A DNA stretch of 64,000 nucleotides from Mediterraneibacter butyricigenes (GTDB lineage Bacteria; Bacillota; Clostridia; Lachnospirales; Lachnospiraceae). Both the position numbers and the translations under genes were made by a program. Positions 12,105 to 60,311 of this stretch are shown piece by piece. The stretch is taken from contig NZ_BHGK01000001.1 of assembly GCF_003574295.1 (NCBI RefSeq), positions 1,550,001-1,614,000 on the forward strand, given 5' to 3'. Every line of letters starts with the position of its first letter. Positions within the stretch are counted from its first letter, which is position 1. The notes under the pieces were generated by a model. It did not search any database, was not told where the DNA came from, and saw nothing but the letters and a program-made list of their open reading frames with translations.

Positions 12105-13337
12105 TCAATTCTCCTTTTCCAAAATCACATCTTCGGTAGATGTGGTCTGCTGTTCAATTATCTTGTAATGCTTTTCCGTCAGTTTCGTGGATTTACGGAT
12201 TTCTTTCAGATAATCAATCCCTGTTTTCGCTGTGATTGTTTCCAGCATTTTGAGTGTCGGGTCAACCTGCCGTTGAATCCAGCGTAGGGTTCTGTCCAGT
12301 GTGTAGGGTTCAGGTTTGGTCGTGAGCTTTAACGGCTCTCTGTTTTCCCCGATGAACCACGCCCAACGGACAGATAATTTCCAGTCGCTCCGTTTCTTGT
12401 CTGCTTCCTTATCCACAAAGCGTACATAACGGTTGATAATAGAAAATGCCGTCCGTTCAGCGTCATAGTAAGTCAGCAGGTCACGGACAGCATAATAAGC
12501 ACGTTCATTTTTTAACCGTATTTCAAATCTGTTTTTTATCGGTGCTTCCTCAATGGGAATCCCAAGTTTGATGTACTGCTCATAGCTTTTTTCATAAACA
12601 CAGAAGTACACCTCACTTTTCAATGAGCCGATATAAAGCGTATACCCCATACCAGCCTTGTCCTGTTCCTCATGCTTGACCAGTTCGCCGGAAGCATAGG
12701 ACTTAAAGGAACGGAACACCGATACACATTCCTCATTCCGGCATTTTTCGGTCAGTTCTGGAATATCTAACATTCCCGTATGGTCATTGATGGCAAGGTC
12801 AAGACGTTTCATCACACCGCCGTCCACCAGAGCGTCCATAAGGAAGTCATACCAGCTCCGTTCCTGTGCCAGCAGATAACTTTCAAACTGGCGACAGCCT
12901 TTTCCTTTCAGTTCCAGCAGGACACCTTTTTCTTCATCGGGAGAAGTATATACGAAAATATCTCCGATGTAGTAGTGTTCTGTATAACTGTAATGCCCGA
13001 AGTCCTCATGTATCATGTATTGAATATTGAGCTGTAAAATATCTTTGATGATGTGTCCAATATCCAGTGTCGGAAACCGTATCCTCACATAATCAAACAG
13101 CATGGTAAGCGGTGCTTCTGGATTGAATTTTTCCAGAGCTTCCAAAAGTTTTACTTTCATTTCTTCTGTGACTGCCACCTTGCCGGATTCGATACGGCTT
13201 AAATGTTCACGGCTGATTCCAGCCATGACCGCAAGTTTCGTCTGGGATACACCGTACTGCAAACGCCTGTCTGCAAAATCCTGTATCCACTCTGTATCAT
13301 TCAGTGCGATACCCCCTTTACGAAAAAACTGTGACAT
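12105..13337 (-). CDS. MOBT relaxase / replication initiation factor (Tn916 Orf20)
   Basis: A 410-residue relaxase of the Rep_trans/MOBT type. An N-terminal XRE helix-turn-helix (about residues 22-75, VSQTKLAVMAGISREHLSRI) precedes the replication-initiator catalytic domain with the metal-site strand MKRLDLAINDHTG and the C-terminal winged region RFEIRLKNERAYYAVRDLL. It nicks oriT, which lies just upstream. The start is uncertain: ATG at 13337 lies inside a perfect palindrome and lacks a ribosome site, whereas AAAGGGGG precedes a CTG at 13304 in the same frame. Confidence 0.9.
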   Translation of the reverse strand: MSQFFRKGGIALNDTEWIQDFADRRLQYGVSQTKLAVMAGISREHLSRIESGKVAVTEEMKVKLLEALEKFNPEAPLTMLFDYVRIRFPTLDIGHIIKDILQLNIQYMIHEDFGHYSYTEHYYIGDIFVYTSPDEEKGVLLELKGKGCRQFESYLLAQERSWYDFLMDALVDGGVMKRLDLAINDHTGMLDIPELTEKCRNEECVSVFRSFKSYASGELVKHEEQDKAGMGYTLYIGSLKSEVYFCVYEKSYEQYIKLGIPIEEAPIKNRFEIRLKNERAYYAVRDLLTYYDAERTAFSIINRYVRFVDKEADKKRSDWKLSVRWAWFIGENREPLKLTTKPEPYTLDRTLRWIQRQVDPTLKMLETITAKTGIDYLKEIRKSTKLTEKHYKIIEQQTTSTEDVILEKEN

Positions 13338-33706: not shown

Positions 33707-33783
33707 GTCTCAGTACCTCAGTAGGATAGAGGGGTCGCCTCCTAAGCGGTAGGTCGGGTGTTCGAATCACCTCGGGAACGCCA
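33707..33783 (+). tRNA. tRNA-Arg(CCT), hybrid or ICE-restored copy
   Basis: A complete 77-base cloverleaf including encoded CCA: D-arm CCTC/GAGG, anticodon stem GTCGC/GCGGT with loop CTCCTAA (anticodon CCT), T-arm GGGTG-TTCGAAT-CACCT. The acceptor stem GTCTCAG against CGGGAAC has two mismatches. I infer that the 5' half was supplied by an element end and the 3' half by the second ICE, restoring a tRNA-like gene. Whether it is charged is unknown. Confidence 0.65.
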
Positions 33784-34819: not shown

Positions 34820-35213
34820 ACAAGTGAAGGGGTTAATTCCGAGCCACGAAAAGGTCAGCCCTTTCACTTGTATTTTGACAACTGAATAAACCATTCACTA
34901 AGACTTTAATTCTGATGATTTTAGCCACCTTATCGGGTACGCCGTGACTTCTGCATTGCAGAACAGCGAGAACTCCCGGTATAGGTAACAGGTTGCCCCT
35001 GTTACGGCGATGACAGTCAGAAGGATAATGATACTTCTCTACGGAGCTGGCGGAGTACCCGGCAGAGGTGAAATTCCTATGATACAGATTAGCAGTCTGT
35101 TCCTTAGTGACTTCCCGTGAGCTTATTGCTCGGCAAGGGGTGTTGAGAACAAATATTGCCCGACCGGTTAGGAAATGAGCCGGTCAAGTACATAGCCATA
35201 CTGCGATGGCTAT
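34820..35213 (+). ncRNA. Hairpin-rich leader before parA, candidate structured RNA
   Basis: Six foldable units lie in 390 bases without a gene: ACAAGTGAA/TTCACTTGT (34820-34871), GTAACAGG/CCTGTTAC (34985-35005), AGAAG/CTTCT near 35020, GAGC/GCTC near 35120, GACCGG/CCGGTC (35162-35185) and ATAGCCAT/ATGGCTAT (35192-35213). The last ends 13 bases before the parA ribosome site. A TTGACA at 34874 could start transcription. A regulatory leader, a partition site or an origin are all possible. Confidence 0.5.
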
Positions 35214-54699: not shown

Positions 54700-54789
54700 G
54701 GGGCAACCCTGAGTGTCTGCATAATCTTAGCGAGCAGACCATTTATGGACAGGAATGTCCAAAACGGTACACTCGTTAGGGGTTGCCCC
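54700..54789. other. Nested inverted repeats before the mobilisation genes, candidate oriT
   Basis: GGGGCAACC (54700-54708) pairs with GGTTGCCCC (54781-54789). Inside, GAGTGT (54711-54716) pairs with ACACTC (54769-54774), GTCTGC (54715-54720) with GCAGAC (54734-54739), and GGACA (54747-54751) with TGTCC (54756-54760). The result is a branched fold just upstream of DUF3789, mobC and the relaxase, where MOBP oriT sites usually lie. It is not followed by a T run. Confidence 0.5.
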
Positions 54790-54820
54790 TAATACCCCAA
54801 GCAAGAAAGGAGCATAAGCT

Positions 54821-54964
54821 TTGCGGGAGATAGTATTGGTCGCCGCCGGGTTACTCATCGGCGGCTTTTTCGGAGTAACAACAATGTGCCTGTTTCAGAT
54901 AAACCGGGACAGACACTATATTTACAGAAAGGACAGCGATAAAAATGAGCAAGAGAAACATTGA
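54821..54964 (+). CDS. DUF3789 small membrane peptide
   Basis: A 47-residue peptide from TTG (after GAAAGGAG): REIVLVAAGLLIGGFFGVTT, then MCLFQINRDRHYIYRKD. One membrane helix with GGFFGV and a QINR motif fits DUF3789, like the peptide at 11967 in the other ICE. It overlaps mobC by 20 bases. Confidence 0.65.
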   Translation: MREIVLVAAGLLIGGFFGVTTMCLFQINRDRHYIYRKDSDKNEQEKH

Positions 54965-55286
54965 AAAGCACATTCTGATGAACAAGGCAGAAGCTCAGGA
55001 TTTGCAGAAAAAAGCAAAGCGGGCGTGTCTTTCCGAAGGCGGACTTATCCGTTTGCTTCTCAGAGGATACGAGCCGAGAGAAAAGCCCGATGAAAGATTT
55101 TACGATGTTATGCGTGAGCTTTCCGCTATCGGCAACAACATCAATCAGCTTGCGGCGAAAGCAAACACCCTCGGATTTGTGGACGCACCGCAGCTCAAAA
55201 AGGAAGCCGAGCGTTGGCACAAGTTTCAGGCTGATGTGGAGCGTACTTTTTTAAGACCCGATAAGAGCGATATGAAATGGCAGTAA
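54945..55286 (+). CDS. mobC: MobC-type relaxosome accessory protein
   Basis: A 113-residue DNA-binding protein. The ribbon-helix-helix-like N-terminal half (HILMNKAEAQDLQKKAKRAC, LSEGGLIRLLLRGYEP) and the MobC signature MRELSAIGNNINQLAAKANT are clear. It bends or opens DNA at oriT to help the relaxase. It overlaps the relaxase gene by 10 bases and lies just after the nested repeats. Confidence 0.9.
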   Translation: MSKRNIEKHILMNKAEAQDLQKKAKRACLSEGGLIRLLLRGYEPREKPDERFYDVMRELSAIGNNINQLAAKANTLGFVDAPQLKKEAERWHKFQADVERTFLRPDKSDMKWQ

Positions 55287-56647
55287 GTAAATTGTGGTCG
55301 GTCACATCAAGGCTCGGTCAGGTAATCGACTATGCCGCCAATCCCGAAAAGACGGCGGCAGACATTTACACCGAGGAACAGTATCAGGCTCTCCGTGATG
55401 TTCTCAGCTATGCAAAGGACGAAGAAAAAACCGAGCGTGAGTTTTTCGTAGAGGGTATCAACTGCAACCCTGCGACCGCAAGAGACCAGTTTATATCTGT
55501 AAAAAAAGCATACGGCAAAGACGACGGCATTCAAGCCTATCACGGATACCTGAGCTTTAAGGAACAGGACATATCCCCGGAGCTTGCACAGAAAATCGGA
55601 ATGGAATTTGCAAACGAAGTGTGGGGCAAAAGATTTCAGGTGGTGGTTACTACTCATCTGAACACGAAACACCTGCACTGTCATTATGTAATAAACTCCG
55701 TTTCCTTTGTGGACGGCAAGCGGTTATGGGGCGACGAAAAAGCGTGGTTCAAGTTTCGTTTGGTTGCCGACTGCCTTTGTGAAAAGTACGGACTGTATTA
55801 CAATCCGAACCCAAACCGCAGTAAGCAATCCTCTTATTACTACAAGCAGGAACAAGCCGGTATGCCGAGCCGATATTCAATGACCCGTGACGCCATTGAT
55901 GAAGCGATTGCACACAGCACCAACTTAAAGACCTTTGATTATATCCTGACTCAGATGGGCTATGAACATTGTCTCAGCGACAGTCGAAAGTATTGGACGA
56001 TTGTCCCGAAAGGATACAAGAAGCCGATACGACTTAAATCACTCGGAGAGAATTATACCGAGGACGCAATCAAGCGTAGGCTGACGGAAAATCAAAAGGT
56101 TCTTATCGTTCCTTTTGCAAAGGAAACGGTAAGAGTCAGGCAGTACCGAATGCCCACAAGAGAACACAAAGTCAAAAAGGTCGGCGGACTGTATGGGCTG
56201 TATCTGCATTACTGCTATAAGCTGGGTTATCTGCCGAAGTACAAAAAACAGAATACCGCAAGGCTTCACTATCTTTTGAAAGAAGATTTGCTGAAGCTCG
56301 ACAAAATCACTCAGGAGACAAGGCTGCTTGGACGGGAGAACATTTCTACCGACGAGCAGCTTTTCTCATATAAAGAGTCCGTGTTGTCGCAAATCAAATC
56401 CTTGACTGACGATAGAACGCACCTGCGAAAACAGTTAAGAAGAAATTTGAGTGACGATGAGCTATCAAATGTCAAAGAGCAGATTACGGCAATCACGAGC
56501 AAGCTGTGGACTCTCCGCAAAGAGGTCGGTCTTTGTGATGACATAGCCGAAAGGTCAAAGGTTATTGAAGCCAACCTTGAAACGGTAAGAGTTTACGAAG
56601 AAAAACAAGAACGAAAGGAGCAGAACCGTAATGACAAACGGAGGTGA
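55277..56647 (+). CDS. MOBP-type relaxase
   Basis: A 456-residue relaxase/mobilisation nuclease. It has N-terminal tyrosine candidates (QVIDYAANPEKT), a metal-site histidine in AYHGYLSFKEQDI and the family's histidine pair in THLNTKHLHCHYVINSVSF. The C-terminal half is helical with a coiled coil (SLTDDRTHLRKQLRRNLSDD). It nicks oriT and carries the strand to the recipient. The order mobC, relaxase, pcfB matches Tn1549-like elements. The catalytic Tyr was not identified with certainty. Confidence 0.9.
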   Translation: MAVSKLWSVTSRLGQVIDYAANPEKTAADIYTEEQYQALRDVLSYAKDEEKTEREFFVEGINCNPATARDQFISVKKAYGKDDGIQAYHGYLSFKEQDISPELAQKIGMEFANEVWGKRFQVVVTTHLNTKHLHCHYVINSVSFVDGKRLWGDEKAWFKFRLVADCLCEKYGLYYNPNPNRSKQSSYYYKQEQAGMPSRYSMTRDAIDEAIAHSTNLKTFDYILTQMGYEHCLSDSRKYWTIVPKGYKKPIRLKSLGENYTEDAIKRRLTENQKVLIVPFAKETVRVRQYRMPTREHKVKKVGGLYGLYLHYCYKLGYLPKYKKQNTARLHYLLKEDLLKLDKITQETRLLGRENISTDEQLFSYKESVLSQIKSLTDDRTHLRKQLRRNLSDDELSNVKEQITAITSKLWTLRKEVGLCDDIAERSKVIEANLETVRVYEEKQERKEQNRNDKRR

Positions 56648-58324: not shown

Positions 58325-58528
58325 ATGGCGAAGGAAGAAATGTATCATATCGCATTGGACGATTATGAACACGGCATTATTATCCGTTCTCTCAACGACG
58401 AGAAAACAGATTTGATGAACGAGGGCAAATCTACCGATGCGGTGGACGACCTTATCATCAAGGTCGGAACTGCCCCAAAGAAAAAGTTCAAAGTTATCGA
58501 AAAGGAACGCTCCTGTGAATCGAGATAA
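58325..58528 (+). CDS. Small ICE protein related to the one at 34154
   Basis: A 67-residue protein: MYHIALDDYEHGIIIRSLND, then STDAVDDLIIKVGTAPKKKF. It shares the TDA-x-DD-x-I-x-KV core and the KKFK end with the first gene of this ICE. It overlaps the VirD4 gene by 14 bases. Function unknown; tight coupling to the coupling protein hints at a role in transfer. Confidence 0.7.
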   Translation: MAKEEMYHIALDDYEHGIIIRSLNDEKTDLMNEGKSTDAVDDLIIKVGTAPKKKFKVIEKERSCESR

Positions 58529-60311
58529 CGAGAGGCAGTCTGCTATTATTCTTTCCGTCATCGGTATTATCCCGGTCGTATGGCTGGCACTTCTGATTGC
58601 ACCCTCTGTAAAAGGAGGATTGCCGGAAATACTGCCGAGCCTATTAACAGCGTTCAACGAACCATTTCATATTGAGCTATGCGAGGACAGCCTAAAAACT
58701 GTCCTCGTTTTGCTTCTCTGCTATGCAATGGGTATTGGGATTTACTTCTCAACACAGAAGAATTACCGAAGGCGTGAAGAACACGGTTCTGCAAAATGGG
58801 GCAATGCAAGAGCCGTAAACAAAAAATACAGACAGTCTCCGGCTTCTGCAAATAAGCTGATGACGCAAAATGTCTGTATCGGACTCAATGCGAAGAAACA
58901 CCGAAGAAACTTAAACACCCTTGTGTGCGGCGGTTCGGGAGCCGGTAAGACAAGGTTTTACTGCAAGCCGAATCTTATGCAGTGCAACACATCATTTGTC
59001 ATTCTTGACCCAAAGGGCGAAATTCTCCGAGATACCGGAAAGCTGCTTGAAAGCAAAGGCTATGAAGTCCGTGTTCTCGATTTGATTTCAATGGAGAAAA
59101 GCCATTGCTATAACCCGTTTGTCTATTTGCAGAATGACAACGATGTGCAAAAGCTCGTGACGAACCTTTTTAAGAGTACCACTCCGAAAGGAAGTCAATC
59201 ACAAGACCCCTTTTGGGATACCTCGGCTTCAATGCTTTTGCTTGCACTTGTATTTTATCTTCATTATGAAGCACCCGAAGATGAACAGAACTTTGCAATG
59301 ATAATGGAAATGCTCAGAGCCGGTGCGATTGAGGACGAGGAGGACACAAGACCTTCTCCTCTTGATGAACTGTTTGCGGAATTGGAGATGTCGAATCCCG
59401 ACCACATTGCTTTGAAGTATTACCGTTCCTATCATTCAGGTGCGGCGAAAACCTTAAAGTCCATACAGATAACCCTTGCGGCAAGACTGGAAAAGTTCAA
59501 CCTTGAAAGTCTTGCTTCTTTAACCACCACAGACGAGCTTGACCTCCCGTCACTCGGAGAGAAAAAGGTCGCTCTGTTCGCTTTGATACCGGATAACGAT
59601 TCCAGCTTTAACTTCTTGGTATCTATCCTTTACACACAGCTTTTTCAGCAGTTGTTTTATGCTGCCGACCATATTCACGGCGGCTCGCTTCCCGTTCCCG
59701 TTCATTTTTTGATGGACGAGTTTGCGAATGTTTCACTCCCTGATGACTTCGACAAAATTCTTTCGGTTATGCGTTCCCGTGGGGTATCGGTAAGTATTAT
59801 CTTGCAGAACTTGGCACAGCTTAAAGCCTTGTTTGAAAAGCAATGGGAAAGCATTGTAGGTAACTGCGACGAGTTTTTATATCTCGGCGGCAACGAGCAA
59901 AGCACCCACAAATATGTGTCCGAGCTTCTCGGCAAGGAAACCATTGATACCAACACTTTCGGAAAAAGTACCGGTCGAAGCGGCAACTACTCCACAAATT
60001 ATCAGATTAGCGGTCGAGAGCTTCTTACTCCTGATGAGGTTCGTATGCTTGATAACCAATATGCAATTCTGTTTATTCGTGGAGAACGCCCCGTTATGGA
60101 CTTCAAGTACGACATCTTGAAGCACCCGAATGTGGCACTTACAACCGATGGAAAGGCTTCTGCATATAAACACGGCGAAGTGACCATCAAGCACTCATCA
60201 ATTTCCGTTCTTTCTATTGACCCGGAAGAACTTCCGGAGGAAAGCTACGGAGAAACCAATTACGAACTTCTGTCCGATGAGGATTTTGAAGTGAATAAAA
60301 ACTTATTTTAA
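58515..60311 (+). CDS. VirD4/TraG-type coupling ATPase (PcfC-like)
   Basis: A 598-residue type IV coupling protein. Two membrane helices (about residues 10-30 and 53-73) precede the ATPase: Walker A CGGSGAGKTRFYCKP, conserved FVILDPKGEILRD, Walker B PVHFLMDEFANVSLPD and the sensor-like ILQNLAQLKALFEKQW. I choose GTG at 58515 with AAAGGA upstream, since the earlier frame overlaps the preceding gene fully. It brings the relaxase-DNA complex to the channel. Confidence 0.92.
   Translation: MNRDNERQSAIILSVIGIIPVVWLALLIAPSVKGGLPEILPSLLTAFNEPFHIELCEDSLKTVLVLLLCYAMGIGIYFSTQKNYRRREEHGSAKWGNARAVNKKYRQSPASANKLMTQNVCIGLNAKKHRRNLNTLVCGGSGAGKTRFYCKPNLMQCNTSFVILDPKGEILRDTGKLLESKGYEVRVLDLISMEKSHCYNPFVYLQNDNDVQKLVTNLFKSTTPKGSQSQDPFWDTSASMLLLALVFYLHYEAPEDEQNFAMIMEMLRAGAIEDEEDTRPSPLDELFAELEMSNPDHIALKYYRSYHSGAAKTLKSIQITLAARLEKFNLESLASLTTTDELDLPSLGEKKVALFALIPDNDSSFNFLVSILYTQLFQQLFYAADHIHGGSLPVPVHFLMDEFANVSLPDDFDKILSVMRSRGVSVSIILQNLAQLKALFEKQWESIVGNCDEFLYLGGNEQSTHKYVSELLGKETIDTNTFGKSTGRSGNYSTNYQISGRELLTPDEVRMLDNQYAILFIRGERPVMDFKYDILKHPNVALTTDGKASAYKHGEVTIKHSSISVLSIDPEELPEESYGETNYELLSDEDFEVNKNLF

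Follow-up and report, generated by a model that had tools for sequence, protein, structure and literature searches.

In the window, that is, the whole 64,000-nt stretch of the Mediterraneibacter butyricigenes genome (3.03 Mb) that was analysed, a set of nested inverted repeats at 54700-54789 stands in front of the mobilisation genes of the second of two ICEs. An initial annotation, made from the letters of the sequence, had considered this segment as a candidate oriT with an unusual cloverleaf-like fold, and had named, among the findings that would speak against it, conservation of the fold as an RNA with a regulatory role only. The questions are therefore whether the segment is the oriT of this ICE, which of its possible pairings are conserved and where the nic lies. 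All positions are those of the window unless another record is named.

Gene context and fold of the site

The position just before the DUF3789-mobC-relaxase genes was confirmed by the Pfam gene context. Precisely, the site is preceded by a DUF4314/DUF3846 gene and followed, on the plus strand, by the genes of a DUF3789 small protein (54821-54964, with a TTG start at 54821; PF12664), of a NikA-like/MobC RHH relaxosome accessory protein (54945-55286; PF21983 and PF05713), which is the predicted oriT-binding partner, and of a MOBP (MobA/VirD2-type) relaxase (55277-56647; PF03432, E = 1.1e-35) predicted to nick the oriT. A DUF3801 gene and then the T4CP gene (58437-60311) were found by Pfam downstream of the relaxase. 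The site thus lies next to mobC and a relaxase gene, in a conjugative element that also has T4SS genes. The relaxase residues Y19, H127, H134 and H136 are candidate catalytic residues and are invariant in nine relatives (alignment A1); we presume their catalytic role from HUH relaxases generally. The relaxase had no match among the PDB sequences, and the MobC query had none in IMG/VR.

Elsewhere in the window, a Rep_trans (MOBT-type) relaxase (12198-12815, minus strand) presumably belongs to the first ICE, and the transfer origins of the two ICEs are therefore probably unrelated. The window also holds an Rfam pemK RNA (RF02913, 70.2 bits) at 35025-35082 on the plus strand and a tRNA gene at 33707-33780.

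All the four perfect pairings described initially are present. The outer stem has 10 bp (GGGGCAACCC, 54700-54709, with GGGTTGCCCC, 54780-54789), and the other three have 6 bp each: GAGTGT (54711-54716) with ACACTC (54769-54774), GTCTGC (54715-54720) with GCAGAC (54734-54739), and TGGACA (54746-54751) with TGTCCA (54756-54761). The GTCTGC stem overlaps the GAGTGT stem by 2 bases, hence 4 bp are left when both form. Free folding of the DNA gave -26.3 kcal/mol for the plus strand (z = -5.46; 0 of 200 shuffles as good) and z = -5.77 for the minus strand (no shuffle equally stable), with the branched form as the result on both strands.

The functional core, however, runs to about 54798, past the 54789 end given before, and its conserved part (54727-54797, plus strand), where our covariance model R1 matches over its full length with 69.1 bits (E = 1.5e-18 in the window), has an alternative fold into two adjacent hairpins, which is the version conserved in relatives. 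Folded on its own, the minus strand of 54727-54797 gives exactly this structure, and so does the minus strand of a distant relative (L013). The first is the long hairpin (54731-54775), closed by a basal stem of CGAG (54731-54734) with CTCG (54772-54775); its inverted repeat (54738-54768) pairs ACCATTT (54738-54744) with AAACGGT (54762-54768), with one A.C mismatch, and continues inward as TGGACA-GGAA-TGTCCA (54746-54761). The second is the adjoining G+C-rich hairpin TTAGGGG-TTG-CCCCTAA (54776-54792), 98.6% of whose cells are paired in alignment A2 (see below). It is followed on its 3' side by a conserved TACCCC tail (54793-54798), of which ACCC is invariant in A2. Because the right arm of the outer stem is part of the G+C-rich hairpin, the outer stem and this hairpin are mutually exclusive. 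The cloverleaf stands as a product of free folding, whereas relatives conserve the two adjacent hairpins instead; its outer stem is kept in the closer relatives only, and for two of its inner stems covariation gives no support.

Conservation of the two-hairpin core

We ran the relaxase as a query against 200 genomes of the family and against 84,980 species genomes. The regions upstream of the retrieved relaxase loci carry the same element, in dozens of related ICEs, with loci from many Clostridia. From 80 loci, 50 distinct cores were taken by anchors, and these follow a common plan on the plus strand, consisting of TTA-N-C-X-AGCA, the inverted repeat, CT-Y-G, TTAGGGG-loop-CCCCTAA and TACCC. 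The basal pair X-Y (54732/54774), beside the predicted nic, is complementary in every one of the 50 cores (G:C in 28, A:T in 19 and C:G in 3).

We then considered 40 aligned cores (alignment A2), from which the covariance model R1 was built. For the 18 pairs of the two-hairpin structure, 93.2% of the cells are paired (85.2% in shuffled alignments), 49 cells carry two-sided changes (14.2 shuffled), with 8 of the 18 pairs affected, and the covariation score is 0.202 (0.086 shuffled). The paired share, the number of pairs with two-sided changes and the number of two-sided cells all exceed every one of 500 shuffles, a comparison that is inflated by the relatedness of the sequences; slid registers, which retain this relatedness, were all far lower than the true register. 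Compensated changes in the G+C-rich hairpin include TTA/TAA to TCA/TGA and G:C to A:T. Such covariation is expected also for the arms of a double-stranded protein site, and does not by itself prove that the site acts as a folded single strand.

Since the homologous two-hairpin sequence stands at the same place, upstream of mobC and the relaxase, in these related ICEs, and since R1 also recognises a site upstream of mobC in the vanB plasmid pMG2200 (E = 3e-5 in 5.7 kb), the oriT reading is strongly supported. As judged from sequence comparison, we estimate a probability of about 0.92 that the second ICE has its oriT here and that this is a MOBP/Tn1549-like one.

The alternative is a structured RNA leader (an attenuator or a protein-binding mRNA) that would regulate the DUF3789-mobC-relaxase operon, with no DNA element involved. 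To evaluate it we considered the 55 strong R1 matches of the family search (E up to 7.4e-5) together with the positions of PF03432. In 35 of the 55 a PF03432 relaxase lies within 5 kb, and the element is oriented in the direction of the relaxase gene in 19 of these and against it in 16. A leader would be consistent with the location between two co-directional genes, with the very stable RNA fold (-44 kcal/mol, z = -5.28; no shuffle equally stable), with the left-arm hairpin GGG-GCAA-CCC, which in RNA would have a GNRA-type tetraloop, and with the small RNA that is reported to be required for mobilisation of another mobilisable element, SGI1 (PMC9299015). It is hard to reconcile with the 16 inverted copies or with the copies that occur without the operon. 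Moreover, no Rfam covariance model matched the element, either at the gathering score or at E = 10, no terminator-like site was found at the element, and wobble pairs are scarce among the variable pairs of A2. The indifference to direction fits a DNA site, and given the 16 opposed copies we regard the leader as very unlikely; copy orientation, the lack of an Rfam family and the orphan copies likewise disfavour the RNA-only fold of which the initial annotation had warned.

Predicted nic and outer stem

Relaxases need a fixed distance between the inverted repeat and the nic. In 43 of the 50 cores the minus-strand GCTYG motif lies 2-3 nt from the inverted repeat, whereas on the other (plus-strand) side the distance between motif and repeat ranges from 0 to 10 nt. 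From this spacing and from the Tn1549 motif we infer that the nic is probably on the minus strand, between 54731 and 54730, inside the base of the long hairpin; the predicted nic sequence, CTGCTCG|CTAAG, includes CGAG (54731-54734) as read on the minus strand. The Tn1549 nic is given as RYGCTTG|C in a table of PMC7755788. The window motif, CTGCTCG|C, agrees with it in 6 of 8 positions, the motif of L009-type oriTs in 7 of 8, and those of pMG2200 and of the L025 type in 8 of 8. The L025-type minus strand reads GCGTTTGGATATCCAAACGC TATGCTTG|CAAAA.

A second CTCG motif on the plus strand (54772-54775) offers a different nick, at CTCG|TTAGGGG (54775/54776), between the two hairpins; this concerns the nic only. 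CTYG|TTAGGG is also highly conserved, and in many relatives there is a GCTTG motif within this region. Its distance from the repeat varies between 0 and 10 nt, against the constant 2-3 nt of the minus-strand motif; L025-type oriTs have no plus-strand GCTYG, yet carry TATGCTTG|C after the repeat on the minus strand; and the pMG2200 site also favours the minus strand. A plus-strand nick is in our judgement unlikely.

With the nic on the minus strand, the MobC-type RHH protein would bind the site and recruit the relaxase, which would nick at CTGCTCG|CTAAG (54731/54730) and remain on the 5' end. The long hairpin, when single-stranded, would offer the relaxase its nic for both cleavage and re-joining. 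The T-strand would exit towards lower coordinates, so that the recipient would receive the toprim/primase-like and helicase/methylase genes at the start and the relaxase and T4SS genes at the end, which is the usual order of transfer.

The outer stem was examined in alignment A3, which consists of 23 closer relatives aligned with their flank. Here the inner stems of the initial annotation, considered as conserved elements, did no better than shuffles; in GAGTGT/ACACTC, 37% of the inner half was paired. Taken as a separate hairpin, the left arm did not exceed the shuffles of the alignment either. By column counts the outer stem is weak too, partly because the register is shifted in two relatives (L064 and L076). 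In a test based on ungapped runs, the pairing total of each left arm with its own right arm was 195, against a mean of 167 and a maximum of 191 when the arms were permuted (0 of 20000). The loop variants of the right hairpin are matched by the surviving left arm (CAA/TTG, CAG/CTG and AACAC/GTGTT). Precisely, L064 has compensated changes (AGGGCAACAC/GTGTTGCCCT), L087 and L092 share a compensated CAG/CTG that is probably one event, L037 has compensated changes in a shifted register, and in L068, L085, L091 and L097 the complementarity of the arms is gone. These compensations and losses together indicate that the outer stem is a real feature, specific to a sub-branch and dispensable. The free folds of L064 and L087 combine the outer stem with the conserved long hairpin, hence a branched form appears possible without the inner stems.

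The spacing of the left arm from the nic motif is constant, with a start at -27 in most members. On the T-strand of this sub-branch it would lie about 20 nt beyond the nic, where it could pair with the G+C-rich hairpin at the opposite end; this pairing would produce the branched fold, and the arm might keep the ends together or be a second MobC site. A wider proposal is that the left arm and the hairpin act as an intramolecular splint, which on the transferred strand would pair across the nic and keep its ends close for re-joining, and as a switch between two mutually exclusive folds, and that this oriT is shared widely in gut Clostridia, with relaxase-less integrative elements that carry copies being moved by these ICEs. 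It is speculative and, taken as a whole, rather doubtful. A competing account, which concerns the outer arm only and is compatible with the oriT identity, considers both G+C-rich arms as operators of MobC (RHH) that never pair, the branched fold being a by-product. Both arms contain GNNNNC within dyads (GGCAAC and GTTGCC; predicted sites only), the constant spacing of the left arm from the nic motif would suit an operator, and the oriTs of the pWBG749 family carry two SmpO sites with the GNNNNC motif (PMC8136818). Operators that never pair would not explain a left arm that varies to match the loop of the right hairpin, as the permutation test indicates; besides, the direction of the arms is always inverted here, and the pWBG749 sites lie within or upstream of IR2, whereas the present arms flank the predicted nic. 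We hold the operator account to be a serious possibility, although at somewhat less than even odds.

Orphan copies and comparison with known systems

The remaining 20 of the 55 strong R1 matches lack a PF03432 relaxase within 5 kb, a count that includes a few contig-end cases that cannot be judged (G026, G082 and G159), that depends on rough R1 E-values and that leaves room for remote relaxases of other families. No PF03432 match was found anywhere in seven further genomes with orphan copies, nor was any protein of the PF01076 or PF02486 relaxase families found near the orphans checked.

The genome of the window has two orphans, at 680467 and 1824571. The first (G000:C1:680467-680529; L002/L033:8468-8530) is a bare oriT-like copy, and there is no relaxase within 390 kb of it. 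It has only 76 nt, 91% identical, in common with an orphan of another genus (L161). Its surroundings are degraded, with a DUF4209 fragment on one side, an unrelated short frame on the other and an IS transposase nearby. The second lies in an 8.6-kb relaxase-less integrative element present in two genera (L168:3866-12481 and L165:3480-11915), whose two copies are 95.5-96.7% identical for most of their length, with serine recombinase, RepA_N, ResIII helicase and XRE genes, and with ORF6N in the copy of the window's genome. In this genome the segment adjoins pieces of kdpB and kdpC, and the kdp genes look interrupted.

Three further orphans (L161:8438-8946, L164:7909-8661 and L173:7354-7936) lie 0.1-0.3 kb from a TnpV gene, and L164 has two oriT copies in tandem, the G+C-rich hairpin of the first being decayed. 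As a general partner of orphan oriTs TnpV was rejected, as 30 of 30 other TnpV loci had no convincing oriT match. An identical oriT and relaxase were also found at NZ_OY725736.1:439779-441733, in a record of 518 kb that is deposited as a plasmid of Monoglobus pectinilyticus, and fragments of ICEs are filed as phage or virus (MT835766, MT839885 and IMGVR_UViG_2905444465).

The same oriT on elements without a relaxase of their own suggests that such elements may hitch rides. The orphan oriTs make mobilisation by resident ICEs testable, and hence the reach of the genes carried. For the large and mostly uncharacterised group of gut ICEs in question, which includes relatives of the vanB element, the analysis provides a secondary structure supported by covariation, a precise prediction of the nic and, with R1, a searchable tool. 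Branched oriTs were proposed earlier for Gram-positive bacteria (PMC8136818), so what is new here is the covarying outer arm, the structure common to the sub-branches and the orphan copies.

The iOriT or hitcher class (PMC11389934) comprises integrative elements that have an oriT but no relaxase. The orphan-bearing integrative elements resemble them, and the 8.6-kb one, with its serine recombinase and RepA_N, fits this class as far as gene content can indicate. In pCF10, the RHH protein PcfF binds inverted repeats and recruits the relaxase PcfG to the adjacent nic (PMC6514445), and by this description the present site is similar, with a predicted RHH partner and a relaxase that would act at a nic beside inverted repeats, although the similarity between MobC and PcfF (6qeq) is weak and not significant (E = 0.71). 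The staphylococcal oriTs of the pWBG749 family contain IR1-IR3, a core targeted by SmpP and the ossA/ossB sites bound by SmpO, the SmpO sites being GNNNNC near dyad symmetry, some of them on opposite strands (PMC8136818). As here, these oriTs have several inverted repeats with a possible branched single-stranded hairpin, an RHH accessory gene between oriT and relaxase, and oriT mimics on elements without mobilisation genes; by description, the window's G+C-rich arms, which flank the predicted nic, set it apart.

The closest comparison is with pMG2200, whose module (vanR-B, mobC and a PF03432 relaxase) is Tn1549-type as read from its annotation. The oriT of the vanB conjugative transposon Tn1549 has itself reportedly been described. 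A second, weaker R1 match in pMG2200 (L205:541-641, E = 0.02) lies close to vanR-B, some 1.5 kb before the Tn1549-type oriT, with TTGCTTG|CCA on the minus strand. As for the window, the pMG2200 oriT is upstream of mobC and a PF03432 relaxase, and its inverted repeat is followed by the nic motif on the minus strand (GGGAGTGGCTACACTCCC TATGCTTG|CTACG). The motif is ATGCTTG|C, which fits all eight positions of RYGCTTG|C, against CTGCTCG|C in the window. Its relaxase is only about 28% identical to that of the window over the matched part, the segment between its stems is longer and there is no left arm. Nevertheless, the adjacent hairpin TTGGGG-AAAT-CCCCAA, followed by ACCCC, is the counterpart of the window's G+C-rich hairpin.
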